Source of the DNA: a virus
DNA length: 29,865 bases
Reading direction: 5' to 3' (one strand)
IMG/VR virus record: IMGVR_UViG_3300034268_000028
Location: 1 to 29,865 of that record
Shown here: positions 2-29,430 of the stretch, piece after piece
Layout of the letters: every line of letters begins with the position of its first letter
Position numbering within the stretch: position 1 is the stretch's first letter
Made by a program: the position numbers and the translations under genes
The notes under the pieces: model-generated
What the model was told of the DNA's origin: nothing
The model's database searches: none
The model's input: the letters and a program-made list of their open reading frames with translations, nothing else

Positions 2-1288
2 GGCTACCAGGCCGGCGACCAGCTCGTCAACCAGTCCGGGACGACCGTCGGCCGGTGGTTCGGACCGTCCGGGATCACCGGCGGCAGCTTCATCGCGGGG
101 ATCGACACGCGCACCAGCCAGATCGGGCAGCTGCTCGGCACCCTCGGCCACGAGGCCGGCTACCTCGGCGAAGAGCAGACGATCGACACCCAGACCTGGG
201 ACCGCGAGCAAAAGGCGATCAAGCAGAAAAAGGAACGCGCCACACGGATCCGGGCGTTCCTCGCACGGTCCGTCGCGCACGCCGCCACGGTCAAAAAGCA
301 GATCGAAGCGATCACGACCGGCAACCTGAAGGCGAATCTCGCGAAAGCGCTCTCACGCCAGGCGATCACGGGCCGCCGAAGCGAACTCGTCTCCCACCAG
401 TCCGGGCTGCAGGCGGAGCTGACCGCGGAGCGCCACCACCAGTCGCAGCTGATCCCGATCGAAAAGGACAGCTCCTACACCGAATCGCTGCAGACCCAGC
501 TCGCCGACGTGAAAGCCGGGATCGCAGCCGAGAGCCAGCTCGCCTCCTCGAGCAGCGCCTCGGCGGCCGTGAGCAAAGCCCGCGAAGCGCTGCTGAAGAA
601 CACCCTCAAACAGCAGCTCGCGACGGTCGCCAAGGAGAACAAACGCCTCGGCGGCTCCTCCTACACCGTCGGCACCGGCGGCCTGTACGGGACCGTCACG
701 AAACAGATCGCGGCGCTGACCGGCGACGCTCCGGGGTGGCGGACCGACTGGCACAACGCCGACACCACGCTCTACGGGGTGCACAAGACGATCGGCGAGC
801 TCGTCGCCGAACAGAACGCGCTGCCGGGGACCCGTGCGATCCAGGTCCGCACCCCCGGCGCCACCACGCCGGGCGGGAACAGCGAACAGCTGCTGCAGCT
901 GGTGCAGCAGCAGCTGCAGACCACCCAGCAGGCGCTCGCGCTCTCCCAGGCGCAGTACGCGGTGTTCCAGGGGTTCGCGCCGTTGGCGCAGGGCCGGCTC
1001 GTCGGGACGTTCGCGACCGGTATCGACCGTGTCCCCAGGACCGGCCCCGCGATCGTGCACCAGGGCGAGGTGATCCTCCCCGACCCCGACGGCCCCTACG
1101 GCAACAGGGCGGCCGCGCAGGCACGCGGCGGCAGCGGCGAGGCCAGCAAGGTCGAAATCATCCTGGCGCTCGACGATCACAACCTGCTGAAGGTCGTCAA
1201 CGCGCAGATGAACCAGAAGGCGCTGCGGATCGTCAGCGACCACGGCGGGCAGCGGGCCAGGCTGATCGCCGGCGTCACCCACGGATAG
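2..1288 (+). CDS. tape measure protein, C-terminal part (5' truncated by window)
   Basis: The frame is open from the first bases of the window to a TAG at 1286-1288, giving the last 428 residues. Most of it is helical and rich in Ala, Gln and Lys, including a Gln-rich stretch near residues 295-310, as expected of the rod-like protein that sets tail length and ends up in the tail lumen. The last 100 residues carry the pattern 'ATGIDRVPRTGPAIVHQGEVILP', the Pro-Arg-Thr-Gly / His-x-Gly-Glu signature common at the C-terminus of siphovirus tape measure proteins. The adjacent tail-tip genes fit. The stop codon TAG lies inside the GATAGT motif that precedes the next gene. The size of the missing N-terminal part cannot be judged. 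Confidence 0.82.
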   Translation, partial: GYQAGDQLVNQSGTTVGRWFGPSGITGGSFIAGIDTRTSQIGQLLGTLGHEAGYLGEEQTIDTQTWDREQKAIKQKKERATRIRAFLARSVAHAATVKKQIEAITTGNLKANLAKALSRQAITGRRSELVSHQSGLQAELTAERHHQSQLIPIEKDSSYTESLQTQLADVKAGIAAESQLASSSSASAAVSKAREALLKNTLKQQLATVAKENKRLGGSSYTVGTGGLYGTVTKQIAALTGDAPGWRTDWHNADTTLYGVHKTIGELVAEQNALPGTRAIQVRTPGATTPGGNSEQLLQLVQQQLQTTQQALALSQAQYAVFQGFAPLAQGRLVGTFATGIDRVPRTGPAIVHQGEVILPDPDGPYGNRAAAQARGGSGEASKVEIILALDDHNLLKVVNAQMNQKALRIVSDHGGQRARLIAGVTHG

Positions 1289-1297
1289 TCCGCCGGG
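1284..1297 (+). promoter_or_regulatory. GATAGT start-associated motif before tail gene
   Basis: GATAGT at 1284-1289 is followed by 8 nt and then the ATG at 1298. No Shine-Dalgarno sequence is visible. The motif contains the TAG stop of the tape measure gene. It belongs to a family of nine such sites in the window and is read as a -10-like element for a leaderless transcript. Confidence 0.6.
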
Positions 1298-3280
1298 ATG
1301 GCCCCGACGTTCACGTTCAAGCTCGGCACGCTCGACCTCTCGAGCTACTGCCGGATGAACCCAGAAGACAAGCTCGACCCCTACGGGCAGCCGTGGCTCA
1401 CCCCGGCCTTCACCGAAACCCCCTACGCAGACGGACAACCGCTGCTGTCGACAACCGTCGGTAACCGCGAGCAGGCGTGGGAGCTGTTCCTACACGAAGC
1501 GAACAAGGATCTGCTGCACCAGCTGATCAGGGAAATCAACCTGGCCGCCGCATTGCGGCCGCTGCAGGTCGAGTGGCGCGACGACGGCGCGAGCGCCTCC
1601 ACGTTCTTCGACGTGGCGTTCGTCAGGTTCGAGCCCGACTTCAACTTCCGCCGCTCCCAGCGCGGGTACGCCGCCGGGAACCTCCACATCTGGGTCAACG
1701 GGTACGGCCACACCGGCACCACACGAGTCGCCGCGACCGCGGCCGGCACGGGGATCTTCCTGTCCGTGCCGATCGCATCGCTGGGAGGCGACGCGCCGGC
1801 GCTGCTGGACACGACGATCGTCGCCGGCGCCGTGGTGCCCACGCAGGGCCGAATCGTCGCGATCGCACCGATCACGAACCCCTCCTACAGCGCGCTGATC
1901 CCCGCCGCGTCGCTCGTGGACACCCAGGGAGGCGCCACGCTTATCGGCGCCAGCGGCGCACAGGGATCCCAATACCTCGCGCTGCCCGTCAGCCCGACCG
2001 GCGGCGCGTCGGGAGTCGCCTGCCGTATCCCGCTGCAGAACCCAACCATCATGGGCGGAGACAACAGGATCCTCGCGATCGTCGACAGCAACATCAGCGG
2101 CGGAATCGGCATCACCGCGCTGGACCCCTACGGCAACAGCATGGGCGGCACCGCGGTCGCATCCACCCTCGAAGCGTGGGGCCTGGTCGACCTCGGCGTG
2201 TGTCGCCTGCCGACCGTCGGGTTCCCCACCCAGCCGAAGATCTCGATCCTCGCCGGCGCGATCTGGGCCTCCGGCGCCGCCGGCCCAGCCATCCTCGGGT
2301 CACCCGGCCTGTCGATCAACGAGATCATCTGCCTGCCGGACAAGAGCCTCACCCTGATCCTCGAGGGCGGCGCCGGCGGCACCCTCGTCTCGCGCGACGC
2401 GTTCAACCGAATCCAGACCCTCGACACCGGCCAAGACGACGTCGGGAACGCATGGCGCCCCGCACAGAACAACGCCGGCGGTGCAGGCGCCACAGGGTTC
2501 GGGCTCCTCGCCGACGGCGGGTTCCTGACCGCTAAAACGCAGCAGACAGCCACAACACTGGTGTTCGACGCCGACCGTGTGGCGGTCCTGTCTGACTCGA
2601 TGCGGATCGCGGCAAAGCCCAACTTCGCCGCCCCCGCCGGCGGCGGCTATGAGGTGCGGCTCTTCAAGGACGTTCAGGCCAGCCAGTACGTGCAGGGCCG
2701 ACTCTCAGCCTCCGGGTTCCTCTCGCTCGAGGTCGCCACCGGCGCAGGCGGCCAGGCCGGTCTCGTGCTCGCCTCGGCGCGGGTGCCGACGCTGTCCGCC
2801 GGGTTCGCGTACCGCCTCAGCCTGCAGCTCGAAGGCGCCAAGGGGTTCGTGAACCTCTCCCGCGACGACGGGGGGCCCGTGTTCGCGCCTGGCTCGATGG
2901 CACAGGCGTCTGTCGGTATCGCGTCGAACGCGGCCGTCGCCGGCGCCGGGGCGCCAGCGATTGCGCTCGCGATGCCCTCCGGTGCTGCCGCGTTCCACAC
3001 CAAGGTCCTCAGCTGGGAAGTCTCCGCAATCCCGTCGAACAGCATCGCCGCGTTCGACAGCTACCGGATCGACGGGGTGAACGTGGACAGCTACCGGACG
3101 GCGAGCAGCGGCGTGTTCGGCGGCGCGAAGCTCGTCAGCGCTCAGCGGGGCAGCTTCCCGAAGGCCGTCCCGTCGACCACCAGCGTGGCGGTGGTCTGCG
3201 TCCCGTTCGATCAGGGCGTCGCGAACGACAAGATCAGCGCGGTCGTCAGCGTGCGCGAGCGGTTCTTCTACGCGCGCTAG
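1298..3280 (+). CDS. distal-tail / minor tail protein with lectin-like C-terminal region
   Basis: 660 residues directly after the tape measure gene, the usual place of distal tail (Dit-like) proteins. The N-terminal 150 residues ('FKLGTLDLSSYCRM', later 'RFEPDFNFRRSQRGYAAGNLHIWV') look like a Dit-type beta domain. The middle and C-terminal parts are Gly/Ala-rich beta-structure; about residues 365-560 ('DAFNR...W', 'YEVRLFKD', 'YRLSLQLEGAKGFVNLSRDD') resemble a concanavalin/laminin-G-like fold often found in phage adhesion proteins. A plausible role is linking tail tube to hub and touching the cell surface. There is no upstream ribosome site; the GATAGT motif sits 8 nt before the ATG. The stop at 3278-3280 shares CTAG with the stop of the opposing gene. 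Family assignment is by pattern only. Confidence 0.7.
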   Translation: MAPTFTFKLGTLDLSSYCRMNPEDKLDPYGQPWLTPAFTETPYADGQPLLSTTVGNREQAWELFLHEANKDLLHQLIREINLAAALRPLQVEWRDDGASASTFFDVAFVRFEPDFNFRRSQRGYAAGNLHIWVNGYGHTGTTRVAATAAGTGIFLSVPIASLGGDAPALLDTTIVAGAVVPTQGRIVAIAPITNPSYSALIPAASLVDTQGGATLIGASGAQGSQYLALPVSPTGGASGVACRIPLQNPTIMGGDNRILAIVDSNISGGIGITALDPYGNSMGGTAVASTLEAWGLVDLGVCRLPTVGFPTQPKISILAGAIWASGAAGPAILGSPGLSINEIICLPDKSLTLILEGGAGGTLVSRDAFNRIQTLDTGQDDVGNAWRPAQNNAGGAGATGFGLLADGGFLTAKTQQTATTLVFDADRVAVLSDSMRIAAKPNFAAPAGGGYEVRLFKDVQASQYVQGRLSASGFLSLEVATGAGGQAGLVLASARVPTLSAGFAYRLSLQLEGAKGFVNLSRDDGGPVFAPGSMAQASVGIASNAAVAGAGAPAIALAMPSGAAAFHTKVLSWEVSAIPSNSIAAFDSYRIDGVNVDSYRTASSGVFGGAKLVSAQRGSFPKAVPSTTSVAVVCVPFDQGVANDKISAVVSVRERFFYAR

Positions 3281-3648: not shown

Positions 3649-3661
3649 GATAGTCGCCGGC
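3649..3661 (+). promoter_or_regulatory. GATAGT start-associated motif before tail hub gene
   Basis: GATAGTCGCCGGC runs straight into the ATG at 3662, leaving 7 nt between the hexamer and the start codon. This is one of two perfect copies of the consensus (the other is at 21602). No Shine-Dalgarno is present. Confidence 0.65.
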
Positions 3662-5284
3662 ATGACGCTGATCGACCGTCCCAGGATGCAGGTGCTCGCC
3701 GGCGGCCGCGACATCACCGACCGGTGCGACAGCATCACGTTCAGCGCGGTGGACCGGGGCGGCTTCGAGATCGCCACGCTGGGGCTCCCCTCGGCGGACC
3801 GGCCGACGAAGGGCACCAGGATCACGATCCGCCAGGGCCTCGAGGTCGCATGGGACGGTCGGGTCGCGGAGCTCGTCGACCACTCCGTCCACGGCCGGGC
3901 GACCAAGACCACGGGCTGCGAGGGGTGGCAGGCGCTGCTGAAGGAGAACCCGTACCAGATGATCTACGTCGACCGGGACCTGTCGCAGTGGCACGGGCCG
4001 AGCGTCGGGCGCCAGATCGCGCTGACTCAAGGTCACTACCAGCAGGGCAGCACGAATGTGGCGAGTGACCAGACGGAAAACGTGCCGGCTCTCATCCAGC
4101 AGATTCAGGGCGACTGGGCCGAACCGTGGAAACCGATCGTCGATAGCTGGTACGACGCAGGGCCCGGGAACGCGATCGCCGCGATCTACCACGCGCTGTC
4201 GCTGCTGAACGCGCCCGGCGGCACCTGGCAGGAGTTCATAAAGACCTGTGGCGACGACCAGGCCGGCAGCGTCGACAGCAGCGTCAACCTAAACACTGCG
4301 GGTGGCGGCGACACGTCGTACTTCAACTCCACCAAAGGGTTCCGGTACGCCAACCTCGTCCACGTCAACGAAGGCACGCCCGGCGGTGGGGCAGGCGCGG
4401 TCGCCACCGCGATCTGGAAGAACCTCGCCGTCTACGGGACCCACGGCCTGACCGGCCGCGGGGACAACCCCGTCGGCCTCTACCCCTCCGACATCGCCCG
4501 GCACGCACTCGCGCAGGTCGCCGGCATCCAGGGAGGGGTGTTCCTCGACAGCACGGGCTACATCGCTCCCCATGTCGTCTACCGGGGGCCGACGGACCCG
4601 GCGGACGTGATCAACGACATGGCGAAGCTGATGGGCTGGACGTGGGGCGTGTGGGAGCCCGCGACGATCCTCGGCAGCGAACCGCGGCTCGACTTCCGCC
4701 CGCCCCCGACCGACGCGACCTGCGTCATCTCGAAGGCGGAGTGCGACGAACTCGACATCACCAGCAGGCTCGGCGACCTGTACGACACCTGCGTCGTCTC
4801 CTACACCGACGCCGGCGGGACGAGTGGCGAGGTGACCGTCACGGTCGCGAACCCGCAGCTGTATGAAGCGACCGGCGGGAAAGGTCGGACGTTGAAGCTC
4901 GAAGGTGGCCTGACAGACGAAGCCGGTGCGCGGACGCTCGGGCTGTTCGCGCTGCAGCTCGCGCAGGTCGCCTCCAGGGGCGCCGGGCAGGCGACGCTCC
5001 CTGTCGCGGTCCGCCTAGCGAACGGTGCGTCGAAGCCGTCGTGTCTGCTGAGGCCGGGGATCGACCGGATCCGGATTACCGACCTCGTCGACGGCGGGCC
5101 GCTACTCGAACAAGGCACCGCGCGCCGTGACGTGTTCCGGATCTCGAGGGTCGAAACGACCGTGTCGAAGGACGGCTCCCCCAACACCCGCGTGGAACTG
5201 GACCTGGGGACGAACCTGCTGGAGACGCTGCAGGCGCGGCTGGCGCTCTCGGCGGGGGTGGTGGGGTCGGGCGCCGTCGGATAG
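3662..5284 (+). CDS. tail hub / baseplate-like minor tail protein
   Basis: 540 residues. The N-terminal segment ('RMQVLAGGRDITDRCDSITFSAVDRGGFEIATL') and the following 'GTRITIRQGLEVAWDGRVAEL' resemble the gp27-like hub domain of tail-associated proteins. The C-terminal part ('LLRPGIDRIRITDLVDG...RDVFRISRVETTVSKDG') matches the way such hub proteins end. The likely role is the trimeric hub at the tail tip below the distal tail protein. A Gly/Asn-rich insert lies around residues 200-260. Position between the tail protein and the lysis genes supports the call. The stop TAG (5282-5284) is embedded in the GATAGT motif of the next gene, the same arrangement as at 1286. Confidence 0.7.
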   Translation: MTLIDRPRMQVLAGGRDITDRCDSITFSAVDRGGFEIATLGLPSADRPTKGTRITIRQGLEVAWDGRVAELVDHSVHGRATKTTGCEGWQALLKENPYQMIYVDRDLSQWHGPSVGRQIALTQGHYQQGSTNVASDQTENVPALIQQIQGDWAEPWKPIVDSWYDAGPGNAIAAIYHALSLLNAPGGTWQEFIKTCGDDQAGSVDSSVNLNTAGGGDTSYFNSTKGFRYANLVHVNEGTPGGGAGAVATAIWKNLAVYGTHGLTGRGDNPVGLYPSDIARHALAQVAGIQGGVFLDSTGYIAPHVVYRGPTDPADVINDMAKLMGWTWGVWEPATILGSEPRLDFRPPPTDATCVISKAECDELDITSRLGDLYDTCVVSYTDAGGTSGEVTVTVANPQLYEATGGKGRTLKLEGGLTDEAGARTLGLFALQLAQVASRGAGQATLPVAVRLANGASKPSCLLRPGIDRIRITDLVDGGPLLEQGTARRDVFRISRVETTVSKDGSPNTRVELDLGTNLLETLQARLALSAGVVGSGAVG

Positions 5285-5291
5285 TCGGCGC
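5280..5291 (+). promoter_or_regulatory. GATAGT start-associated motif before holin gene
   Basis: GATAGT at 5280-5285, then 6 nt to the ATG at 5292, the shortest spacing in the set. It contains the TAG stop of the hub gene. If this is a promoter, the lysis genes can be transcribed separately from the tail genes. Confidence 0.6.
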
Positions 5292-5501
5292 ATGAGCTCA
5301 ATCGTCAAGACCATCAACCGGGTCCTCGGACTCGTGGGTGTCGGGCCGCTCTCGCAGAAGCTGGTCGTGCAGGTCATCACCTCCGGGCTGACCTACGCCG
5401 CCGTGCAGCTGCTGCCGCTCGGGATCAGCCAGGAACTGAACGGGCTGATCGTGCTCGTCGCCGGCCTGGTCGCGCACTACCTCGTCCCAGAAGGCTCGTG
5501 A
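5292..5501 (+). CDS. putative holin
   Basis: 69 residues with two hydrophobic segments ('LVVQVITSGLTYAAVQLLPLGI' and 'LNGLIVLVAGLVAHYLV') joined by a short polar turn, and an amphipathic N-terminus. Small size, two predicted membrane spans and position directly before an endolysin gene suit a holin, which would permeabilise the membrane at the end of infection. The N-terminal start is fixed by the GATAGT motif 6 nt upstream. The stop TGA (5499-5501) overlaps the GTG of the endolysin gene. The family is not identified; some phages have non-holin membrane proteins at this place. Confidence 0.65.
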   Translation: MSSIVKTINRVLGLVGVGPLSQKLVVQVITSGLTYAAVQLLPLGISQELNGLIVLVAGLVAHYLVPEGS

Positions 5502-5515
5502 GGCTCCGCCTCACG
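5497..5515 (+). promoter_or_regulatory. hairpin covering holin stop and endolysin start
   Basis: CGTGAGGC-TCC-GCCTCACG is a perfect 8-bp stem with a 3-nt loop. The 5' arm holds the endolysin GTG (5498-5500) and the holin TGA (5499-5501). Free mRNA would hide the lysin start, while a ribosome ending holin translation would open it, giving strict translational coupling. Confidence 0.6.
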
Positions 5516-6394
5516 CTGCTCGCGCTGCTGCTCGTCGCCCTCGTGGCGGCCAGCAGCAGCCCCTCAGCAGCCGCCAGCTGCGCACGCCGCTCCGCCGCGA
5601 GCACCGCCTGCGTCGGTGCCGGTGAAGCGCGCCCCGGCGGCCCGCCGATCGCGAAAGCGTCACCAACACCGCAAGGCATCGACATCTCCAACTGGCAGGG
5701 CGTGCCGAACTTCCACGCCGCGCGCGCCGCCGGGCTCCGGTTCGTGATCATCCAGACCAACGACGGGTTCTTCCGCAACCCGTTCTTCTGGCTGCAGGCG
5801 GCCGCCGCGAACAACGCCGGGATCCCCTGGGGCACCTACACGTTCATCGAGGGAGCCGACCCGGTCGGCCAGGCGCAGATCGCGCTCTCGATGGCGGCGG
5901 GCCACGGCCGCAAGCTCGGCGTATGGGCCGACGCCGAGAAGTCTGCCGCCTACCCCGTCACCTGCGCCTACGTCCGGCACGTGCAGGCCGCCGGCGTCCA
6001 CATCTACGGCGTGTATGGCTCCCCCGGCACCTACCGCGGCGGCCGCTGCCCCGGCTGGGACTGGCCCGCAATATGGTTCGGCCCCGCCCGTCCGCTGCCC
6101 GGCTACCCGGCGAGCGCGACCAAGCTGCACCAGTGGTGCGGCACCTGCCACGTCCCCTGGTACGGCGGCGAACTGGACCGTGACGAATCCCTCGGCCTGC
6201 TGTCGCTCGCCGCGCCCGCGCCGACCCGCGCGCAGCTCCGCGCGAAAGCCGTGCGCGAAGCCGGTGTGCTCTTGGCCGACCTACACCGCCACGGCTGCTT
6301 CCACGTCCACGGCCGCCACGCCTACCCGCTCTGCCCCCGGTGGGGGCAGCTCTGGCGGCACTGGCAGCACGAAGCACACCGGCTCTCGACCTAG
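5498..6394 (+). CDS. endolysin, GH25-type lysozyme with signal peptide
   Basis: 298 residues. The first 27 form a Sec-type signal peptide (Arg-x-Arg, then a Leu/Ala run). From about residue 60 the order of motifs is that of glycoside hydrolase family 25: 'GIDISNWQG', a 'FVIIQTNDG' strand, 'GTYTFIEG', then 'LGVWADAEKS' with the Asp-x-Glu pair as the probable catalytic acids, and 'IYGVYGSPGTY'. It should cleave the MurNAc-GlcNAc bond of peptidoglycan. The C-terminal 60 residues are His/Cys-rich and may bind the wall. The signal peptide means export could be host Sec-dependent, leaving the holin to trigger activity. GTG start by overlap with the holin stop; the start lies inside a strong hairpin. 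Confidence 0.85.
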   Translation: MRLRLTLLALLLVALVAASSSPSAAASCARRSAASTACVGAGEARPGGPPIAKASPTPQGIDISNWQGVPNFHAARAAGLRFVIIQTNDGFFRNPFFWLQAAAANNAGIPWGTYTFIEGADPVGQAQIALSMAAGHGRKLGVWADAEKSAAYPVTCAYVRHVQAAGVHIYGVYGSPGTYRGGRCPGWDWPAIWFGPARPLPGYPASATKLHQWCGTCHVPWYGGELDRDESLGLLSLAAPAPTRAQLRAKAVREAGVLLADLHRHGCFHVHGRHAYPLCPRWGQLWRHWQHEAHRLST

Positions 6395-6404: not shown

Positions 6405-6875
6405 ATGCCGGTGGAGGAGGTCACCGCCCCGCTCACGCGCCGCCAGATGCAGGTCATGGAGCTACTCGTCGCCGGCAACACCTACCAGCAGGCCGCCGCC
6501 GAGCTCGGGCTGAGCCGCTCCACGGTCCGCTCCTACGTCCACCAGTCCTACCTGAAGCTGGGCGTCGGGAGCATCGGGCCCGCGCTGCTGCGGATGCAGG
6601 AGCTCGGCTGGATGGCCCAGCCCGAGCCGCCGCCGAAAGACCCGTGCAAGGTCGGCGGGGAAGTCGTCGACTACTACCCCGACCTCGAGCCGCTCACCCC
6701 CGCCCAGCGGCTGTACCTGCAGGCGTTCGACCGGTACCTCGCCGCGCCCGCAGACAGCCCCGAAGAGGACCGGGCCCGGAGTGAGATGCGGTACATGCTC
6801 GGCGCGATGTACATCGAGCGAGACCTGCGGCCCACGGGCGCACAGGTCGGGCCGGCGCACCGATGCGCTGCCTGA
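6405..6875 (+). CDS. LuxR/GerE-type HTH protein
   Basis: 156 residues. Residues 8-55 ('LTRRQMQVMELLVAGNTYQQAAAELGLSRSTVRSYVHQSYLKLGV') follow the LuxR/GerE DNA-binding pattern closely, including the Thr-Val recognition helix and the final Lys-Leu-Gly-Val. There is no receiver or autoinducer domain; the rest is acidic with a 'LTPAQRLYLQAFDRYLAAP' helix. A small phage-encoded transcription regulator at the boundary of late and early genes is likely, perhaps switching expression. The ATG at 6405 follows the endolysin stop by 10 nt with a weak AGGGG upstream. What it binds is unknown. Confidence 0.7.
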   Translation: MPVEEVTAPLTRRQMQVMELLVAGNTYQQAAAELGLSRSTVRSYVHQSYLKLGVGSIGPALLRMQELGWMAQPEPPPKDPCKVGGEVVDYYPDLEPLTPAQRLYLQAFDRYLAAPADSPEEDRARSEMRYMLGAMYIERDLRPTGAQVGPAHRCAA

Positions 6876-7684: not shown

Positions 7685-7906
7685 ACAAAGATTGCCGTCC
7701 GCGACGACCCACCGCCCGGACGGCGCGACCTGCGAAGAGGAAGCTCGCAAGTGGCAACCAGCCTACTAGCCGGCCACGCCCCGTCAACCCGGGGACACAC
7801 CGATTTCACCCGCTCCCACCGGACAGACGGGAGCAACGTCGTACCCATAAAAAAGCGCTCGCACGGCCAGCACCGTCGAGCGCAAGACCCAAGGAGACAC
7901 ACCTCC

Positions 7907-8686
7907 ATGAGTGCGCACAGTCAAGCAGAGCAGCAGGTCGTACCGCAAGACCCCGAGCAGCTCGTCGACGCGACCGTCGTCGAGCCGCCCGTCTCGCTCG
8001 CCGTCGCACGGCGCGAACGGCGCAGTGAAGTCATCAGGCCCCTCGACGTCGACCAGCTCGTCGACAGCTTCGCGGCCTATCAGAGCATGCTGCCCAGGCT
8101 GCTCGACGCCGGCGACTACCAGCAGCAGGGCGACAAGCGGTTCGTCAAGAAGTCCGGGTGGCTGAAGATCGCCGCCGCGTTCGACCTCGAGACCGAGCTC
8201 GCCGCGCCCGTCCTGATCAAACGCGACGAGAACGGCAAGCCGGAGACCGCCGAAGTGTGGATCCGCGCGGTGGCCCCGTCTGGGCGCTCGATGGTCGGCG
8301 ACGGCTACTGCTCGGTCGACGAGCCGCGGTTCTCGAGCGAGAGCGGCCGCCGGAAACTCGAGCACGACCTGCCGTCGACCGCGGCGACACGCGCGCGCAA
8401 CCGTGCGATCAGCAACCTCGTCGGCATGGGCGAGGTGTCCGCCGAGGAGATCGACGCCGGCACCCGCAACAGCGCCGACAGCGACCACCCGTACGGTCCG
8501 CCGCTCCCAAAGGGCAAGGCCGCCCAGCGACCCTACGCGCCAGCGTTCGGCCAGCTCATCGGGCCCGACGCCCGGACCGCGTGGATCGCGATCGTCGCCG
8601 AGTTCGGCTACATGCCGCTCCCCGTCGCGCGAGCGTTCCAGCTCGCCGCCGGCTTCCTACCGACCGAGGAGGCCGTCGCGGTGTAG
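7907..8686 (+). CDS. putative phage recombination / ssDNA-annealing-type protein
   Basis: 259 residues. The stretch 'KKSGWLKIAAAFDLETE', 'VRAVAPSGRSMVGDGYCSVDEPRF' (variant) and 'HDLPSTAATRARNRAISNLVGMGEVSAEE' is a pattern I associate with DNA recombination or annealing proteins of phages and mobile elements, and the gene precedes the replication initiator. The assignment is from memory of the motif, not a match. Start chosen at ATG 7907 because AAGGAGA lies 9 nt upstream; the same frame is open from GTG 7751, where GAGGAAG also precedes, so a 52-residue longer form is possible. Confidence 0.5.
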   Translation: MSAHSQAEQQVVPQDPEQLVDATVVEPPVSLAVARRERRSEVIRPLDVDQLVDSFAAYQSMLPRLLDAGDYQQQGDKRFVKKSGWLKIAAAFDLETELAAPVLIKRDENGKPETAEVWIRAVAPSGRSMVGDGYCSVDEPRFSSESGRRKLEHDLPSTAATRARNRAISNLVGMGEVSAEEIDAGTRNSADSDHPYGPPLPKGKAAQRPYAPAFGQLIGPDARTAWIAIVAEFGYMPLPVARAFQLAAGFLPTEEAVAV

Positions 8687-10858: not shown

Positions 10859-11184
10859 TCAGGAAAGCGACACTCCTAGCGCTCGCGCTGCTCGCGACCA
10901 GCGTGGCGCCGGCGGCTGCGGCGAAGCACAAGGCGCCGAGCATCAGCGCTGCGAAGCGCGTGCTGCGCGACGAATGGCACGGCGGCGGCCCGAACGTGTT
11001 CATCGGCTACTGCCGCCGGCATGAAACGGCCGACACCACGAGCTGCTTCGTGCGCGTGACCTGGCGCGGCGAAATCAAGGCCGTGCATCTCGAAACGCGG
11101 CTCGTGGGCGAATACCACTATGTGCTCGGCTGGCGCGGAGACCGGATCGTCGCGTGGGAAGCCGGACAGGAGGCACGATCATGA
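10855..11184 (+). CDS. small secreted protein, similar in layout to the 3277-3588 product
   Basis: 109 residues with a signal peptide ('MIRKATLLALALLATSVAPAAAA') and a mature domain with 'ISAAKRVLRDEW', 'IGYCRRH' and 'TTSCFVRVTW'. The two Cys, separated by about 12 residues, match the positions in the secreted protein of 3277-3588, so both may belong to one family of small secreted or periplasm-like proteins. It overlaps the previous gene by ATGA, in contrast to its relative with a private promoter. A surface or superinfection role is a guess. Confidence 0.62.
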   Translation: MIRKATLLALALLATSVAPAAAAKHKAPSISAAKRVLRDEWHGGGPNVFIGYCRRHETADTTSCFVRVTWRGEIKAVHLETRLVGEYHYVLGWRGDRIVAWEAGQEARS

Positions 11185-11384
11185 CGCCTCCGGGTCAAAG
11201 CGACAGCCGGCCGGCCACGGTCGAGATCCCGACGGAGCTCGCGGACGCGCTCGCGCAGGCGATCAGCTTCATGGTTGATCGCGAGTACGGCGTCGAGGGC
11301 ACGCAGGGGGTTGTCGGGCCGCCGACGGGCTACCTGCTCGAGCGCTGCCGCGAGCTTGGCATCCGGACGGAGTGGCAGCGATGA
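11181..11384 (+). CDS. hypothetical protein, 67 residues
   Basis: ATG 11181 is preceded by CAGGAGG. An acidic helix ('IPTELADALAQAISFMVDREYG') and a C-terminal 'YLLERCRELGIRTEW' are visible. The first 24 nt resemble the first nucleotides of the two following genes, hinting at duplication of gene starts. Not recognised. Confidence 0.55.
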   Translation: MTPPGQSDSRPATVEIPTELADALAQAISFMVDREYGVEGTQGVVGPPTGYLLERCRELGIRTEWQR

Positions 11385-11587
11385 CGCCTTCCGGTGAAAG
11401 CGTCGTCGTGTGGAACTACCCGGCCAACCGCTTTGAGGCGCCCCACCCCGGCAATCTCGTGCGAATAAAGCGGGAGCGGGAGCGCGAAGGGGCTCTCGCG
11501 GTGACGCTCCCCGACGGCCGCCGGACCTACCTTCTGCCCCGCGGCTCGGTGACGCACCCGACCGGATGGGAGGTGGCATCCCAATGA
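11381..11587 (+). CDS. hypothetical protein, 68 residues
   Basis: Overlaps the previous stop by ATGA. Contains 'VVVWNYPANRFEAPHPGNLVRIKRERER' followed by a beta hairpin ('LAVTLPDGRRTYLLPRGSV'), suggesting a small beta-barrel. Not recognised. Confidence 0.55.
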   Translation: MTPSGESVVVWNYPANRFEAPHPGNLVRIKREREREGALAVTLPDGRRTYLLPRGSVTHPTGWEVASQ

Positions 11588-11947: not shown

Positions 11948-11962
11948 GATAGTCGAGGCGCG
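11948..11962 (+). promoter_or_regulatory. GATAGT start-associated motif before winged-helix gene
   Basis: GATAGT at 11948-11953, 9 nt before ATG 11963. The following bases deviate from consensus and include GAGG, which could serve as a weak ribosome site. It directly abuts the inverted-repeat array, so a protein bound there could control it. Confidence 0.5.
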
Positions 11963-12226
11963 ATGGTGCTGACCGACGCGGCCCACGACAGTCTGATCCG
12001 GACACTCGACCGAGCCGCTGATGATGAGGGCTGGGCGCAGGCCGGGTACATCGCGGCGCTCGTAGCTGGGGAGCCAGGCTGGCCCAACACCGGCGATGGG
12101 CGGATGGTCACGCGCCAGCTCCAAGAGCTTGAGCGTTCTGGCCTCGTGGAACGGCGCCGGCCGACAGAGCCGGTCTGGGGGCTGACGGACGCCGGTGTCG
12201 AAGCGCTAGAGGCACTTGATGGCTGA
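11963..12226 (+). CDS. small winged-helix DNA-binding protein
   Basis: 87 residues: helices, then 'RMVTRQLQELERSGLVERRRPTEPVWGLTDAGVEALEAL', a typical recognition helix, wing and C-terminal helix of MarR/PadR-like winged helices. It starts after the repeat array and GATAGT motif, and could autoregulate by binding the repeats. ATG 11963 was chosen because of the motif; the frame is open upstream to 11891 but that part is encoded across the repeats. The stop overlaps the next start. Confidence 0.62.
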   Translation: MVLTDAAHDSLIRTLDRAADDEGWAQAGYIAALVAGEPGWPNTGDGRMVTRQLQELERSGLVERRRPTEPVWGLTDAGVEALEALDG

Positions 12227-14787: not shown

Positions 14788-15512
14788 GCGCCCCAGCCCC
14801 CGCCAAGCAACGCCGCCGGCGCGCCAGGTGCACCACCTGCCTCGCGCCACTAGCCAGAGGCTCATGCCCAAAACACGGGCCGCGCAATCCAGACGGCTCA
14901 TCCCTGGCCCCATCCCCCAACAAGGGGAGACGGTTTCCGGCCGAGCCCCTGACCAGGGAGGAGGTGGCGGGGTTGCTCCGCGCATGCTCGCACAGGTCCC
15001 CCACCGGCATCCGGAACGCCGCGATCGTCGCCACGCTCTGGCGGTCCGGCATCCGCTGCTCGGAGCTGCTCGACCTCCGCCCCAAGGACATCGACCGCAA
15101 GGCCGGGCACCTCACCGTCCTGCACGGCAAGGGCGACAAGCGCCGCGTCGTCGCGATCGACCGGGAGGCGCTCGTCCGCATCGACCTCTGGCTCGAGCTG
15201 CGCGGCCAGCTCGGCATCACCGGCCACCGCCCCGTGTTCTGCACCCTCCAAGGGCAGCGCCTCTCGGGGCGGTATCTCCGCGAGCTGCTCCCCAGGCTCG
15301 CAGCACGGGCGGGGATCGAGAAGCGCGTCCACCCCCACGGCCTCCGTCACACCCACGCGTTCGAATTGACGATGGAGGACACGCCGCTCCCGACGATCCA
15401 GGCGCAGCTGGGGCACACGAACGCTGCGATCACGTCGAGGTACATCCAGCACATCGCGCCGAAGGATCTGACGGCGACGATCCGCGCCCGCCCAGCCTGG
15501 GACAGCGAGTGA
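14784..15512 (+). CDS. tyrosine recombinase, short form with N-terminal zinc-ribbon motif
   Basis: 242 residues. All catalytic residues of the tyrosine recombinase family can be placed: Arg91 ('SGIRCSELL'), Lys116 ('HGKGD'), His185 and Arg188 ('HPHGLRHT'), His211 ('LGHTN') and the nucleophile Tyr220 ('ITSRYIQH'). The core-binding SAM-like domain is missing; residues 1-50 instead hold 'CTTCLAPLARGSCPKHG', a Cys/His metal-site candidate. It may integrate the phage, resolve dimers, or act on a cassette. No attP core is seen near it. Overlap with neighbours shows it is co-transcribed with the early block, which is unusual for an integrase. Confidence 0.82.
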   Translation: MSAPAPAKQRRRRARCTTCLAPLARGSCPKHGPRNPDGSSLAPSPNKGRRFPAEPLTREEVAGLLRACSHRSPTGIRNAAIVATLWRSGIRCSELLDLRPKDIDRKAGHLTVLHGKGDKRRVVAIDREALVRIDLWLELRGQLGITGHRPVFCTLQGQRLSGRYLRELLPRLAARAGIEKRVHPHGLRHTHAFELTMEDTPLPTIQAQLGHTNAAITSRYIQHIAPKDLTATIRARPAWDSE

Positions 15513-15852: not shown

Positions 15853-16023
15853 GCGCCCCCGGGTTCTTTAAAGCACCGCGGGCGGCGCGGGCCTGCGGGC
15901 TGTCACCGCTTGCAGGATCGGTCCTGGCCGTGCACTAATAGACAGTGAGTGCCGACGGGGCTCCCACGCTGCCAGGGCAGGCGTCCCGTCAGATAGTCCG
16001 ACCACCACCGCACGGAAGCAGCG
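15853..16023 (+). promoter_or_regulatory. upstream region of sigma-like gene with displaced GATAGT
   Basis: 171 nt without a gene. It contains GATAGTC at 15992-15998, but the next plausible start (GTG 16024, preceded by GGAAG) is 26 nt away, so a transcript from here would have a short leader with a ribosome site. A second -10-like TAATAG lies at 15937. No tRNA or attachment core is recognised. Confidence 0.4.
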
Positions 16024-16519
16024 GTGAGCGCGACCCAAGACGGCCCTGGCACTCCTCTCCCACCCCACCTGCCTGCACGACATCGCGAACTGCGAGGCGT
16101 TCGTCCAACGCACCGTCGACGCATCAGGCATCAGCTGCAACGCCGCCGAGCGCGAAGAGCTCCTCGCCGAGGGGCTCGTCATCCTCTTCGAGCTAGCGAA
16201 GCGCTACAAACCCCTCCCCGCCCGCCCCGGGATCGACAAGCAGGCCGGCCGGTTCTCCGGGTACGCCGCGATGTTCCTCCCCCGCCGCCTCGGCGACGCA
16301 TGGCACCGGTGGCACCCCGAGCACCGGTACATCACCGACCCAGCCACCGGACGCCGCCGCTGGCACTACGACCCGCCCACCATGTCCCTCGACGGGCTCT
16401 ACGAGGCCCGCGGCGGCGACGCCGGCGAATCGCTCGGGGACGCGGCGCTCGCGAAGGCGCGCACGCTCCGGGACTTCGTCCCCACCACCCAGCTATGTGT
16501 TCGTCAGGCCGCGGCGTAA
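16024..16519 (+). pseudogene. sigma-factor-like gene, N-terminal half, frameshifted and interrupted
   Basis: From 16028 the frame encodes 'AEREELLAEGLVILFELAKRY', 'FSGYAAMFLPRRLGDAWHRW', a region-2-like pattern of sigma-70 proteins (core-binding and -10 recognition). There is no start codon in this frame: a TGA lies at 16025-16027. GTG 16024 with GGAAG upstream is one frame away; removing one C from the CCC at 16031-16033 would give a natural N-terminus (MSATKTALALL). The homologous-looking part ends near 16495, where the antisense endonuclease gene begins; the last residues before TAA 16517-16519 look foreign. The region-4-like half follows at 17022-17309. It may be a real broken gene, a sequencing error plus insertion, or an intron-containing gene. 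Confidence 0.5.
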
Positions 16520-17021: not shown

Positions 17022-17309
17022 TTGCGCGACGCGGGGGCGATTTCGTTGACTGGCAGTGTCCCACCGCGGGCGGACGCGCGAGGGCCGCGCTCGTCGTTTC
17101 TGCAGCATTTCCGCAGGGCTCTCATAGCGGACCTTGAGCCGGAGCTCGAGCTCGCCATGAAGGTGGGCGTCCTCCAGGCCGCCGGCCACCGCCGCTCAGA
17201 GATCGCACGGATGCTCCCCGACGTGACCGCGCCCGCGCTGCGCGTCGCGGAGGCCCGCGTGAAGAAGGCGGCCGCCCGGTTGGACGCCGGCGACAAGGAC
17301 CACGAATGA
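17022..17309 (+). CDS. sigma-factor-like C-terminal half (region 4-like HTH)
   Basis: The open frame runs from TTG 17022; the protein-like part begins near 17100 and an internal ATG lies at 17158. 'ELELAMKVGVLQAAGHRRSEIARMLPDVTAPALRVAEARVKKAAARLDAG' resembles sigma region 4, the helix-turn-helix that reads -35 sequences. With the region-2-like half at 16024-16495 it forms the two ends of a small sigma-like protein, separated by about 600 nt carrying the antisense endonuclease gene. Residues before about 17100 are probably not original. Its stop overlaps the next ATG. It may be expressed as a small HTH protein of 50 residues from ATG 17158. Confidence 0.5.
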   Translation: MRDAGAISLTGSVPPRADARGPRSSFLQHFRRALIADLEPELELAMKVGVLQAAGHRRSEIARMLPDVTAPALRVAEARVKKAAARLDAGDKDHE

Positions 17310-18630: not shown

Positions 18631-19180
18631 ACACACCAAGCTCACCGAGGCGATCGTCGCCGAGCTCGAGCTAGCCGTGAACGGTGCCGCGTCCTACAAG
18701 CTCGCCGCCGAGCACGCCGGGATCTCCGAGCGCACCTTCCACGCCTGGCGCACCCGCGGCCGCACCGAGCAAGACCGCCTCGAGCAAGCCGAAGAACACC
18801 TCGACCGGCAGCCCGCGAAACCACGCACCAAGAAGGCGAAGGCCGAAAAGGCCGCCGCCATCAAGGCCGCCAGGCCGCTCCCCGACGAGGAGCCATTTCT
18901 GCAGTTTCTGCAGCGGATCGCCAAAGCCAACGCAGCCGCCGTCGTCCGCGCAGAGGCACAGATCGCGGCCGCCGCGGGCGACGACTGGCGTGCCGCCGCG
19001 TGGCTCGTCGAGCGCCGCGACCCGCTCTACGCGTCCCCCAAGGCCCGTGTCCAGCTCGAGGGTTCTGAAACGGGGGCGCCCCTCGTCTCGATAGTCGCCG
19101 TCGATGCCGGAGACCCTGAGACGCGCAGGCTCGCGCACGCGCTCCTCGCCCGTCGCGCGGGGCGCACTGACCGAGAGTGA
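18623..19180 (+). CDS. terminase small subunit
   Basis: 185 residues. The N-terminal 'TEAIVAELELAVNGAASYKLAAEHAGISERTFHAWRTRGR' is a terminase-type helix-turn-helix; a long charged helix (residues 50-95) and 'FLQFLQRIAKANAAAVVRAEAQIA' follow, consistent with oligomerisation. It would recognise packaging DNA and hand it to the large subunit, which follows and overlaps by 77 nt. ATG 18623 overlaps the methyltransferase stop by 8 nt. The GATAGT motif for the large subunit lies within this coding sequence. Confidence 0.78.
   Translation: MGRHTKLTEAIVAELELAVNGAASYKLAAEHAGISERTFHAWRTRGRTEQDRLEQAEEHLDRQPAKPRTKKAKAEKAAAIKAARPLPDEEPFLQFLQRIAKANAAAVVRAEAQIAAAAGDDWRAAAWLVERRDPLYASPKARVQLEGSETGAPLVSIVAVDAGDPETRRLAHALLARRAGRTDRE
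19090..19103 (+). promoter_or_regulatory. GATAGT start-associated motif for TerL, inside terS
   Basis: GATAGT at 19090-19095 is followed by CGCCGTCG and ATG 19104 (8 nt). The motif is kept although the DNA also codes for 'SIVAVD' of the small subunit, which argues that it is selected for its position. Confidence 0.6.
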
Positions 19181-20648
19181 CATCGTCGACGCGCAGACCT
19201 CGCCCGCCGGGCTGGCGTGGGTCACGAGCGGCAAGGCGCAGGAGCCAGACGCCGGCTGGGTGCCCTTCAAGCACCTGAGGCTCCTCTCCGACAAGTACAT
19301 GCAGGTCGCAGCGGGCCAGATCCCGCGGCTGATCGTGACGATGCCACCCCGGCACGGCAAGAGCGAGCTCATCTCGCGGTACGGCCCGGCGTGGTTCCTC
19401 GGCAACTACCCCGACAGCAAGGTGATGCTCGCCGGGTACAACTCCAGCTTCGCCGCCAGCTGGGGGCGGAAGGCGAGGGACGTGCTCACCGAGTGGGGCC
19501 CGGAGATCTTCGGTGTCCGTGTCAGCCAGACCACCAGCGCATCGGACTATTGGGAAGTGCACGGCCACGAGGGCGTGATGGTCACGGCCGGGATCGGCGG
19601 CGGCCTCACCGGCAAGGGCGCACGCCTGCTCGTGATCGACGACCCCGTCAAGGACGCCGAGGAGGCCGCGTCCGAGACGATCCAGCTCAAGCACTGGGAG
19701 TGGTGGATCTCCACCGCCCGCACGAGGCTCGAGAAGGGCGCCGGCGTGATCCTCGTGATGACCCGCTGGAACGAGAACGACCTCGCCGGGCAGATGCTCG
19801 CCGCCGCCGAACAGGAAGGCGGCGAGCCGTGGGAGGTCCTGAACCTGCCAGCGATGGCCGAGGAAGGCGACCCGCTAGGCCGCAAGGAGGGCATGGCGCT
19901 CTGCCCGGAGCTGTTCGACCACGCCACGCTCGAGCAGACCCGCAAGGCATCCGGCGGCTACTGGTGGGCCGCGATGTACCAGCAGCGCCCCATGCCCGCC
20001 GAGGGCGGCCTGTTCAAGCGCACCGACTTCCGCACCTTCTACGAGGACCCCGACCGCGACCTGTACTGGATGCGCCGCGACGAGGACGGCGAGGAGCCCA
20101 AGCCCGTCGGCCGCGACTACGTCTACAGGTTCGTCACGATCGACCCCGCCTTCAGCGAGAAAGAGACCGCGGACTACACCGCGATGCTGCTGTGGGGCGT
20201 CACGCCGTGGATGGACCTGCTGCTGCTCGACGTGGAGCGCGTCAGGTTCGACGTCGAGAACCTCGCCGCCGCGATCCGCCGCTACTACGACCTCCACAAG
20301 CCCAACGACGTGCGCGTCGAGTCGAAGGCCTACGGCGCGAAAGTGATCCACCAGCTCGTCGGCCAGGGCCTCCCGATCATCCCGCTGGACGCGGACACCG
20401 ACAAGGTCACCCGTGCGCTCAGCGCCGTCCCGCGCTATGAGGCGCACACCGTCTACCACCGTGCCGGCGCGGACTGGCTCGACGCCTACGAGCGCGAGCT
20501 GCTGCTGTTCCCCTCGGGTAAGAACGACGACCAGGTCGACGCGTTCGCCTATGCCGCGCTCGCGCTGCCGGACCTGCAGCTGGTGGCGCACCGGCAGCAG
20601 TCGATTGGGCGGACCGAGACGGGCGGGCTACTCGACCAGGCGCTCTAG
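19104..20648 (+). CDS. terminase large subunit
   Basis: 514 residues. ATPase domain: Walker A 'PPRHGKSE' at residues 81-88 and Walker B 'LLVIDD' at 175-180 with a following catalytic region 'SARTRLEKGAGVILVMTRWNENDL' typical of terminase coupling motifs. The nuclease domain begins near residue 345 ('VTIDPAFSEKETADYTAMLLWG') with an RNase H-like Asp, and ends with 'NDDQVDAFAYA', the conserved final acidic motif. It packages DNA into the prohead. The start overlaps terS by 77 nt and has the leaderless motif. Alternative in-frame starts exist downstream, but this one fits the motif spacing. The 3' end overlaps the opposing gene by 21 nt. Confidence 0.92.
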   Translation: MPETLRRAGSRTRSSPVARGALTESDIVDAQTSPAGLAWVTSGKAQEPDAGWVPFKHLRLLSDKYMQVAAGQIPRLIVTMPPRHGKSELISRYGPAWFLGNYPDSKVMLAGYNSSFAASWGRKARDVLTEWGPEIFGVRVSQTTSASDYWEVHGHEGVMVTAGIGGGLTGKGARLLVIDDPVKDAEEAASETIQLKHWEWWISTARTRLEKGAGVILVMTRWNENDLAGQMLAAAEQEGGEPWEVLNLPAMAEEGDPLGRKEGMALCPELFDHATLEQTRKASGGYWWAAMYQQRPMPAEGGLFKRTDFRTFYEDPDRDLYWMRRDEDGEEPKPVGRDYVYRFVTIDPAFSEKETADYTAMLLWGVTPWMDLLLLDVERVRFDVENLAAAIRRYYDLHKPNDVRVESKAYGAKVIHQLVGQGLPIIPLDADTDKVTRALSAVPRYEAHTVYHRAGADWLDAYERELLLFPSGKNDDQVDAFAYAALALPDLQLVAHRQQSIGRTETGGLLDQAL

Positions 20649-21601: not shown

Positions 21602-21614
21602 GATAGTCGCCGGC
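21602..21614 (+). promoter_or_regulatory. GATAGT start-associated motif before PLD-like gene
   Basis: A perfect consensus copy, GATAGTCGCCGGC, immediately before ATG 21615 (7 nt). No Shine-Dalgarno is present. Confidence 0.65.
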
Positions 21615-22557: not shown

Positions 22558-22571
22558 GATAGTCCCCGGCT
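22558..22571 (+). promoter_or_regulatory. GATAGT start-associated motif before histidine phosphatase
   Basis: GATAGT (22558-22563), CCCCGGCT, then GTG 22572 (8 nt). It shows that the motif also precedes a GTG start. No Shine-Dalgarno. Confidence 0.6.
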
Positions 22572-23055: not shown

Positions 23056-23265
23056 ATGGCCTCCCGGCGGTGCATCCAGTGCGACACGCCGCTGTACCCC
23101 TCCGAGCAGGGCGCGCTCTGCTCCACCTGTTTCTACGAGGCGATCTGTCGGCCGGGCCCGGGCGCCGGAGGGGAGGCACCCGGACCCGACCATGCAGCAG
23201 CTGCCACGCGCGCGCCCGCTGAGCGTACCCCGCTGCAGCGACGCCGCGACCGCCACGGGTTCTGA
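23056..23265 (+). CDS. zinc-ribbon-like small protein
   Basis: 69 residues. 'CIQCDTPLYPSEQGALCSTC' gives two CxxC pairs separated by 13 residues, a typical zinc ribbon; the remainder is basic and disordered. One nucleotide separates it from the preceding stop. Third small zinc-ribbon protein in the window. Confidence 0.6.
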   Translation: MASRRCIQCDTPLYPSEQGALCSTCFYEAICRPGPGAGGEAPGPDHAAAATRAPAERTPLQRRRDRHGF

Positions 23266-23286
23266 AACGCCCAGGCCGCGCAGCCG

Positions 23287-23303
23287 GATAGTCGCCGGCA
23301 GCC
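23287..23303 (+). promoter_or_regulatory. GATAGT start-associated motif before portal gene
   Basis: GATAGTCGCCGGC at 23287-23299, followed by AGCC and ATG 23304, an 11-nt spacing from the hexamer. This is the widest spacing of the set, so a four-nucleotide leader is expected. Confidence 0.58.
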
Positions 23304-25091
23304 ATGGGCCTGCTCGACATCTTCAAGCGCCAGCCGTCCGCGACCGACCAGCCGCTCTCGGACTCCGGTCGCGCGCACGTCTCCGGGTTCCTGCAGCTCG
23401 AGGAGGCCAACACCCTCCTCCAAGGCCAAGAAGGCCTCCGGATCTACGACCAGATGTACCGGACCGACCCCGACGTCCGCCGTGCCGTCAGGATGGCGAT
23501 CAACCCGATTGTCTCAGCGGCGTGGCGCGTCGAGCCGTTCGGCGGCGACGAAGCCGACCCGAGGGACCGTGAGGTCGCGGAGAACCTCGAGTGGGCGCTC
23601 GGCCTCGGCGCGCAGGGCGCCACCTCACCGTTGCGGCCCCGGTGGCGTGCGCACCTCGCCGAAGCGCTCCCCGGGTTCGTCCGGTGGGGGTTCTGCCCGT
23701 TCGAGGTGACGTGGACCCACGCGACCCGCAACGGCAAGGACCTCATCACCCCCAGCCGGCTCGGGATGCGCCTCCCGCGCACCATCTACCGGTGGCTGCT
23801 CGACGACAACCACGAGCTCGAGGCGATCGAGCAGTTCCTGCCGCTCCGCGGGTACGTGACGATCCCGCGCGAGGACCTCCTCTACTACCGGGTCGACGCC
23901 GAGGGCGACAACTACGAGGGCGTGTCGATGCTCCGCCCCTGTTACAAGCCCTGGTTCTTCAAGGACAAGGTGGAACGCCTGGACGTGATCGCCCAGGAGC
24001 GCGAGGCGATCGGCCTCCCCGTCGTGTTCCCACCCCGCGCCGGCGTCACGTCCCCCGCGGTGCTAGCCGACTTGGAGACGAAGCTCCAGAACCTCCGCGC
24101 CGGCGAGCTCGCCTACCTCATCATGCCCGGCCCCGAGGCCTCCACCGTCAAGGACCAGGGGGGCTGGACGTTCCGGATCGAGGGGCTCGCCGGCAGCAAG
24201 GGCGGCCGTGACCCGCACCCCTCCCTCGAACACTACCGGGACGGTATCGCCGCAGCGTTCATCGAGGAGTTCATCCGCCTCGGCCAGTCCGGTGTCGGCG
24301 CGCGCGCGACCGCAGACGTACAGGAGGGCCCATTCAACATGGCGTGTGAGGCGCTCGGGATGATCCCCGAGGCGGAGTGCAACGAGATCCTGATCCCCCG
24401 GTGGGTCGCGCTGAACTACGGGCCCGACACGCCGCTCCCCACCCTGTCGATGAGCATGGCCGAGGAGCCGCTCGCGGATCTCCGCGACTACGTCGCTCTC
24501 CTGGTCGAAAAGGGCGCGATGACCGCCGACGGCGAGCTCGAGGACTTCCTCCGCGACCGTGCCGACCTCCCCCCACAGGACCCGGCGGTCCGCAAAGAGA
24601 TCGACGCGCAACGCGCAGCGGAGCGCAAGGCCGCGGTCGCCGGCGCGAACGCCACCGCCGCAGACCCGCAGGGCCTGAAGACGATCGCCGCGAAGGCCGC
24701 CGGCAGCGAATCCGCGGGCGCCGACCGGGAAACCGCCGCGGACACCCGCGAAGCGAGCCGTGAGGAGCAGGAAGCACGACTGCTCGACACCCCCAGCCGC
24801 GGCCAGAGCTACTCCGGCGACGGCACCTGGCCCACCGGCTCAGGGAAAGCCGGCGTCGACGGTGTCCCCACCCCCGACCTGCTGCACGACTTCCGCCCGA
24901 CCGACAGCTGGGTGTGCCCGTGCGGCAACGACAGCTGCAGCTGCTCTTCGCCGGTGAACTGCTCCTACGTGGACTGGTCGACGAACATGGACCAGAACCC
25001 GCGGCGGCGCAATCGCGGCGCCGGCGACGGCACCAGCGCCGCCGCACCCGACTCGCTCGTGTCCCGCGGCTCCCACGGCCAGACCCTCTAG
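23304..25091 (+). CDS. portal protein (Mu gp29/DUF935-like) with Cys-rich tail
   Basis: 595 residues. 'IYDQMYRTDPDVRRAVRMAINPIVSAAWRVEP' at residues 48-80, 'FVRWGFCPFEVTW' and 'LLYYRVDAEGDNYEGVSMLRPCYKPWFFKDKVERLDVIAQEREAIG' are the characteristic blocks of Mu-like portal proteins. The portal forms the ring through which DNA enters the head. After about residue 455 an Ala/Glu-rich helical region leads to an unusual tail with 'CPCGNDSCSCSSPVNC' at about 534-549 and a basic stretch. Context of terminase upstream and Mu F-like protein downstream supports the call. Confidence 0.85.
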   Translation: MGLLDIFKRQPSATDQPLSDSGRAHVSGFLQLEEANTLLQGQEGLRIYDQMYRTDPDVRRAVRMAINPIVSAAWRVEPFGGDEADPRDREVAENLEWALGLGAQGATSPLRPRWRAHLAEALPGFVRWGFCPFEVTWTHATRNGKDLITPSRLGMRLPRTIYRWLLDDNHELEAIEQFLPLRGYVTIPREDLLYYRVDAEGDNYEGVSMLRPCYKPWFFKDKVERLDVIAQEREAIGLPVVFPPRAGVTSPAVLADLETKLQNLRAGELAYLIMPGPEASTVKDQGGWTFRIEGLAGSKGGRDPHPSLEHYRDGIAAAFIEEFIRLGQSGVGARATADVQEGPFNMACEALGMIPEAECNEILIPRWVALNYGPDTPLPTLSMSMAEEPLADLRDYVALLVEKGAMTADGELEDFLRDRADLPPQDPAVRKEIDAQRAAERKAAVAGANATAADPQGLKTIAAKAAGSESAGADRETAADTREASREEQEARLLDTPSRGQSYSGDGTWPTGSGKAGVDGVPTPDLLHDFRPTDSWVCPCGNDSCSCSSPVNCSYVDWSTNMDQNPRRRNRGAGDGTSAAAPDSLVSRGSHGQTL

Positions 25092-26817: not shown

Positions 26818-26827
26818 GCCCCACAGG

Positions 26828-27259
26828 CTAGGCCGTGGGGCGGCCGCGGCCGAACCAGCGCCGCCGGCGCGGGCCGCCCGCGTCCGCGAGCTGCGCCTCG
26901 AGCTCGCGGATCCTCGCGCGCGCCTCGAGCAGCTGCTCCTGCGTCTGCCCTGCGTACTGCTCGATCTGCCGGAGCTGCCCGTTCTCGCGCGCGAGCCGCT
27001 CCAGCCGGTCCAGGAGCTCGATGGGCACCACACCAGGCGTGGCGCCAGTGGTGACTGTCCGCCGTACGAGCCCGGGCGGGTCGTCCGGGTGCGGGTCCTC
27101 GGTCACTGAGCTCGCCCCTATGGCGCTCGCGGGGATCCTGCGCTTCCCATCCACCAGCAGCGACGGGAGCACCTTCCGCTCGATCCGCCGGCGCACCGCC
27201 TTCTCCGACGTGCCGAGCGCCTGCGCCGCCTCCGCCACGCTCAACGTACGGTCGCTCAC
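26828..27259 (-). CDS. HTH protein with coiled coil
   Basis: 143 residues from GTG 27259, overlapping the preceding stop (GTGA). 'LSVAEAAQALGTSEKAVRRRIERKVLPSLLVDGKRRIPASAI' is a MerR/excisionase-type winged HTH; residues about 85-125 ('LLDRLERLARENGQLRQIEQYAGQTQEQLLEARARIRELEAQL') form a coiled coil; the end is basic. It looks like a dimeric regulator. A nearby GTG at 27274 is less likely. Confidence 0.62.
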   Translation of the reverse strand: MSDRTLSVAEAAQALGTSEKAVRRRIERKVLPSLLVDGKRRIPASAIGASSVTEDPHPDDPPGLVRRTVTTGATPGVVPIELLDRLERLARENGQLRQIEQYAGQTQEQLLEARARIRELEAQLADAGGPRRRRWFGRGRPTA

Positions 27260-28328: not shown

Positions 28329-28331
28329 GGT

Positions 28332-28780: not shown

Positions 28781-28856
28781 GGGTGCCCCTTCCTCGGGTC
28801 GTTATATGCCCCGACGGGTGGGTCCCCCGGGGGTACCCCGCACCCTAGCTCTAGGG

Positions 28857-29404: not shown

Positions 29405-29417
29405 GCTGAGGCCGCCG

Positions 29418-29430
29418 GATAGTCGCGGGC
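29418..29430 (+). promoter_or_regulatory. GATAGT start-associated motif before protease gene
   Basis: GATAGT (29418-29423), CGCGGGC, then GTG 29431 (7 nt). No Shine-Dalgarno. Confidence 0.62.

Follow-up and report, generated by a model that had tools for sequence, protein, structure and literature searches.

The phage record IMGVR_UViG_3300034268_000028 (29,865 bases, 70.6% G+C), analysed here over its whole length and referred to as the window, repeatedly carries the heptamer GATAGTC just upstream of start codons, which raises the question of whether this sequence acts as a promoter, as a translation signal or as a site of another kind, and what reads it. The window encodes the large terminase (terL, 19104–20648, plus strand), the portal protein (23304–25091, plus strand), the beginning of a head maturation protease gene (plus strand, GTG start at 29431), an endolysin (5498–6394), a short integrase (14964–15512), a replication-initiation-like protein and a DNA methyltransferase. 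A search with bases 1–25000 of the window revealed no isolated phage that is nearly identical to it.

The window contains ten copies of GATAGTC, all on the plus strand, compared with 1.13 expected on both strands together, and none of 100 shuffles of the window reached this number. Nine of the ten copies are located 5–10 nt before an ATG or GTG. The copy at 1284–1290 precedes ATG 1298 of a late gene (1298–3280) by 7 nt, and the orthologue in relative G001 has the same site. The copy at 3649–3655 lies 6 nt before ATG 3662 of a second late gene (3662–5284), and the copy at 5280–5286 lies 5 nt before ATG 5292. The copy at 11948–11954 is 8 nt upstream of ATG 11963, which opens a plausible 87-codon ORF with winged-helix-like character (11963–12226). 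Further downstream, the heptamer is found 7 nt before the ATG of terL (19090–19096), 6 nt before ATG 21615 of a late-region gene (21602–21608), 7 nt before GTG 22572 of a histidine-phosphatase-like gene (22558–22564), 10 nt before the ATG of the portal gene (23287–23293) and 6 nt before the GTG of the head maturation protease gene (29418–29424). These nine copies had been listed in a preliminary description with correct coordinates, but a tenth, at 15992–15998, had been overlooked, and the spacings of 8, 7, 6, 9, 8, 7, 8, 11 and 7 nt given there are each one too large; counted from the C of GATAGTC, they are 7, 6, 5, 8, 7, 6, 7, 10 and 6 nt. As described there, two copies include the TAG of the preceding gene (genes ending at 1288 and 5284), an arrangement seen in 11 of 87 cases family-wide. 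The GCCGGC continuation that had been ascribed to all but one of the nine copies is found unchanged at 3649, 21602 and 23287 but only in part at the others; as this block varies among relatives and is absent in one of them (L252), the conserved core is GATAGTC rather than a 14-mer.

Relatives were collected in three ways. A TerL search yielded one close relative, G001 (IMGVR_UViG_3300037852_000143, 63% identity), which has 20 sense copies of GATAGTC and no antisense copy. Scans of viral contigs with motif patterns added five long records (G002, G003, G004, G005 and G010) and a shorter one (G015), and a scan with the alignment of a sigma-region-2-like protein, described below, added the ninth record, L252 (IMGVR_UViG_3300048597_000170). 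L252 also has GATAGTC, and every record returned by the protein scan carries the motif. The GATAGTC system thus comprises the window and eight further IMG/VR records. The exact 17-mer GGATAGTCGCCGGCATG had no match in viral contigs, and a viral contig scan for GATAGTCGCCGGC followed by ATG within 5 nt returned mostly single chance matches besides the family. A host search, in which the sigma-region-2-like alignment was scanned against 84,980 species genomes, confirmed no relative. TerL relatives in these genomes are at most about 50% identical and scattered across many phyla, and therefore do not identify the host.

Across the first eight records to be collected, GATAGTC occurs in 112 sense and 5 antisense copies, making it the most strand-biased of all 7-mers. 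An ATG or GTG lies 4–10 nt downstream of 103 of the 112 sense copies, with ATG at exactly 7 nt in 52 of them; the shortest distance is 4 nt, and no start codon was found at 3 nt, the shortest distance checked. When both strands of all nine records were counted, ATG followed at 5–9 nt after 91 of 122 copies, compared with 12 of 104 and 11 of 101 (about 11%) in TerL-bearing loci from other phages and bacterial genomes, respectively. The excess of ATG in the family over the TerL relatives is highly significant (p about 1e-59); six of the nine records came from motif patterns that included ATG, and part of this excess is therefore ascertainment, but the window, G001 and L252, which were found without such patterns, show the same excess. 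Variants of GATAGTC with one mismatch almost never precede ATG.

We aligned 107 sites on the heptamer, across which full information is obtained by construction. A C is preferred two bases upstream of the heptamer, the stretch downstream is variable and GC-rich, and the positions from −45 to −7 carry almost no information, in agreement with the earlier statement that no −35 element is conserved. In reciprocal-best gene pairs of which both members bear the site, identity at −60 to −20 is 32%. The reported lack of a good Shine-Dalgarno (SD) sequence was likewise confirmed: using our own gene calls, in which starts were shifted to the motif where one fitted, an SD match of at least 5 accompanies 3% of the genes with a motif, compared with 32% of the remaining genes and 8% of internal ATGs. 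By the same calls, 1% of motif genes overlap the upstream gene versus 55% of other genes. Genes with a site in front of them are terL, portal, head protease, tape measure, tail-region and further late-region genes. In the window and G001, the integrase, replication-initiation and endolysin genes carry none, and sites are missing from most of the early block. Two copies 68 nt apart accompany the head maturation protease homologue of G003 (oriented positions 9065 and 9133) and that of G010 (14921 and 14989); in G003, each of the two precedes an in-frame ATG, as if for two isoforms.

A candidate reader of the motif is encoded in the stretch before terL. The gene at 16046–16519 (plus strand) encodes a sigma-region-2-like protein with the pattern E-E-L..G...L..L...F.P....GRFSG.AA..LPRRLGDAW. 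Its start is uncertain and is probably CTG 16046; no ATG, GTG or TTG is present at the expected start in the window or in G001 (10957–11412), and CTG occurs at the same place in both. The tenth GATAGTC copy of the window, at 15992, is situated about 50–60 nt upstream of this gene without a start codon at the usual distance, and G001 has a copy in a similar position (oriented 10886); autoregulation of the gene is possible. The sigma-region-2-like gene is followed by a gene for a sigma-region-4-like helix-turn-helix (HTH) protein (17022–17309, plus strand, start TTG 17022 or 17046).

This pair, with the HTH gene after the sigma-region-2-like gene, is present in eight of the nine motif records, and lies before terL in all of them except G004. 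The remaining record, G005, has the motif and lacks both proteins, and its contig begins near terL. When 159 control loci were scanned with profiles of the two proteins, neither had a convincing match. Since common descent keeps both proteins in the same genomes as the motif, their co-occurrence alone does not link them to it.

Similarity of the two proteins to sigma factors is remote. Plain sequence searches of PDB, Pfam, NCBIfam and PHROGs with the sigma-region-2-like protein gave no match, and no relative was found in the isolated-phage collection or in the species genomes. A 6-frame Pfam search returned a weak region-2 match in the G002 orthologue (PF04542, E 0.013). In hhalign, comparison with sigma region 2 scored 26.7 (P 1.5e-4), against a maximum of 18.6 in 200 column shuffles and 8.1 for the reversed profile, while an earlier comparison with only four sigma sequences had been weak (P 0.008). 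The sigma-region-4-like protein scored 21.1 against region 4 (P 0.001; shuffle maximum 18.0), whereas its score against region 2 was 7.5. Some of the sigma sequences in the reference alignments used for these region-2 and region-4 scores were entered by hand. For the sigma-region-4-like protein, Pfam, NCBIfam and PHROGs gave only generic HTH matches, and an independent 6-frame search found Sigma70_r4_2 (PF08281, E 0.008) on the G003 protein. The structure model of the sigma-region-2-like protein reached a pLDDT of 81.6, compared with 67 for an earlier, poor model. A Foldseek search with this model returned nothing significant, and its most probable weak matches include SigE region-2 structures.

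Several further features of these proteins and their surroundings were observed. In G002, G003 and G010 (loci L232, L235 and L242), the sigma-region-4-like frame lies in +1 relative to the sigma-region-2-like gene and overlaps its stop codon at a shared TTCCTGCGTGA, and start codons for this frame exist only upstream, inside the sigma-region-2-like ORF, or within the HTH, so the downstream protein may be made by programmed frameshifting or from an internal start. G004 encodes, besides the split pair, a complete sigma factor comprising regions 2 and 4 (oriented 7818–8393), whose best PDB matches are FliA. The window also encodes a LuxR-type HTH protein at 6405–6875, with relatives in G010 and G015 and a best PHROGs match annotated as sigma factor (E 7e-6), and a leftward gene on the minus strand at 26828–27238, which is kept in G001 and has a weak region-4-like HTH match.

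On these grounds, we consider it probable that GATAGTC is a −10-only late promoter read by a phage split sigma factor together with the host core RNA polymerase. The preliminary description had also proposed a −10-type late promoter abutting the start codon, and that part is supported by strand, spacing, SD depletion, the missing −35, the concentration on late operons, conservation in nine records and a candidate specificity factor. For its reader, given there as a phage-specified or modified RNA polymerase, a split sigma with host core polymerase fits better than a phage polymerase. A T7-type RNA polymerase was considered as reader and set aside, since eight records had no PF00940 match, a weak argument given that control genomes were equally without one. 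In the proposed scheme, early genes, many of which use an SD sequence, would depend on the sigma factor of the host. The small sigma-region-2-like and sigma-region-4-like proteins, made late in the early block, would then join host core polymerase as a split sigma that recognises GATAGTC and turns on the packaging, head and tail operons. GATAGT would serve as the −10 hexamer, with the C in addition. The usual distance from −10 to +1 would then place the transcript start on the start codon or a few nucleotides upstream, so that late mRNAs would be leaderless or nearly leaderless and without an SD sequence. Action of the element at the level of DNA, its recognition by the pair of proteins and the position at which transcription begins are all inferred. 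Besides the remote sigma similarity and the lack of both proteins in G005, two points count against this promoter: a spacing of 4–10 nt would suit a ribosome-binding signal equally well, and the near-absolute invariance of 7 bp is stricter than is usual for sigma-70 promoters.

The main rival reading places the action of GATAGTC in translation: transcribed from ordinary promoters upstream, it would be an unusual initiation signal in the mRNA to which the ribosome or a phage protein binds. Its fixed closeness to start codons, the overlap with upstream stops in the 11 of 87 cases mentioned above and the presence at the same place of the Cluster K start-associated sequence (SAS; GGGATAGGAGCCC), which has GGATAG in common with it (PMC3203893), are consistent with such a role. 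A complement in the anti-SD is lacking, however, and GACTATC is absent from one actinobacterial 16S rRNA, which need not represent that of the host. Motif genes are moreover SD-poor and start after a gap, without overlapping the upstream cistron, the 15992 copy does not lie at a start codon, and a sigma-like pair is present; we regard a translation signal as unlikely. More doubtful still is a reading in which the housekeeping sigma of the host recognises GATAGTC as an ordinary leaderless promoter, with a −10 of the xAxxxT type kept uniform by phage selection and the sigma-like proteins serving otherwise. GATAGT does retain the A and T that are most important in −10 elements, but the G, T, G and C positions are fixed just as firmly, the sites concentrate on late operons, and one-mismatch forms are nearly absent before ATG although the housekeeping sigma tolerates many −10 sequences. 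GATAGTC could also be an operator, comparable to the stoperators of L5, at which a repressor or silencer of the phage binds where late genes start. A short, repeated, sense-oriented and conserved site would agree with this, as would the near-palindromic TTTC(T/A)GAAA close to some sites, but an operator has no need of a fixed distance of 5–9 nt to the start codon, and the surroundings of the sites contain no other conserved promoter, which leaves this explanation very improbable.

The split-sigma promoter can be compared with known systems. The late promoters of T4 comprise 8 bp without a −35, and are served by gp55, whose resemblance to sigma is confined to domain 2, and by gp33, which mimics sigma-4 (PMC2988020). 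The GATAGTC system is similar in its short −10-only element, the absence of a −35, its late genes and its separate, here predicted, phage sigma-2-like and sigma-4-like proteins. It differs in its motif, in the position of this motif on the start codon (predicted to be leaderless), in an HTH retained by the sigma-4-like protein, in the unrelated phage group and in candidate proteins with no detectable relation to any catalogued family. A T4-type sliding clamp was searched for in eight possibly incomplete records without a PF02768 match, although a divergent clamp could escape such a search and a host clamp could serve. The system thus likely works by analogy with T4 late transcription, the likeness being one of function. 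A two-subunit sigma is also known from Bacillus subtilis, where regions 2 and 4 of SigO-RsoA are on separate proteins (PMC8103513); the phage pair, likened to it by description, has its region-2-like and region-4-like parts divided in the same way, whereas SigO-RsoA is cellular and uses different promoters.

The SAS of Cluster K and Microbacterium Cluster EF phages is a conserved 13-bp sequence directly ahead of start codons, mostly in one orientation, which in some cases includes the stop codon of the upstream gene or has an inverted repeat upstream of it (PMC3203893, PMC7302621). GATAGTC resembles the Cluster K SAS in being conserved, directly before start codons and in one orientation, and the earlier comparison was correct in that GGATAG is shared and the SD-like AGGAG is missing. 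Whereas this AGGAG goes with a suspected translational role of the SAS, GATAGTC sites are SD-depleted, and judged by its consensus GATAGTC is not an SAS. Leaderless promoters of actinobacteria have a degenerate −10 and are read by a host sigma factor. Such promoters, known from actinobacterial leaderless transcripts (PMC4633059), likewise place the −10 close upstream of the start codon and lack an SD, the leaderless start being inferred in our case, but differ from the invariant 7-mer concentrated on late phage genes.

No paper on GATAGTC or on a leaderless phage late promoter of this type was found in the literature searched. The wider proposal is a new late-transcription system in GC-rich phages of 40–54 kb, with a two-piece sigma without catalogued relatives, possibly made as a fusion by frameshifting in three records, and a −10-only promoter of seven invariant base pairs that adjoins the start codon and sets both the transcription start and leaderless translation; we hold its chances to be about even. 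If true, a different kind of phage would have arrived, apparently independently, at the T4 strategy of a split phage sigma with a −10-only late promoter, and late transcription would be coupled directly to leaderless translation. It would also suggest asking whether the start-associated sequences of Clusters K and EF really are translational signals, and would predict transcription and gene starts almost to the base in uncultured phage genomes.

A second, optional element, TTCTGAAAC, is found 27 nt before the terL site (19063–19071, plus strand) and 27 nt before the portal site (23260–23268, plus strand). Around the 107 aligned sites, TTCTGAAA(C), near-palindromic as GTTTC(T/A)GAAAC, has 33 matches, located at −27 to −11 or at +19 to +24. 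This variable position led us to reject the element as a −35 at fixed spacing, and it is possibly the site of a regulator.
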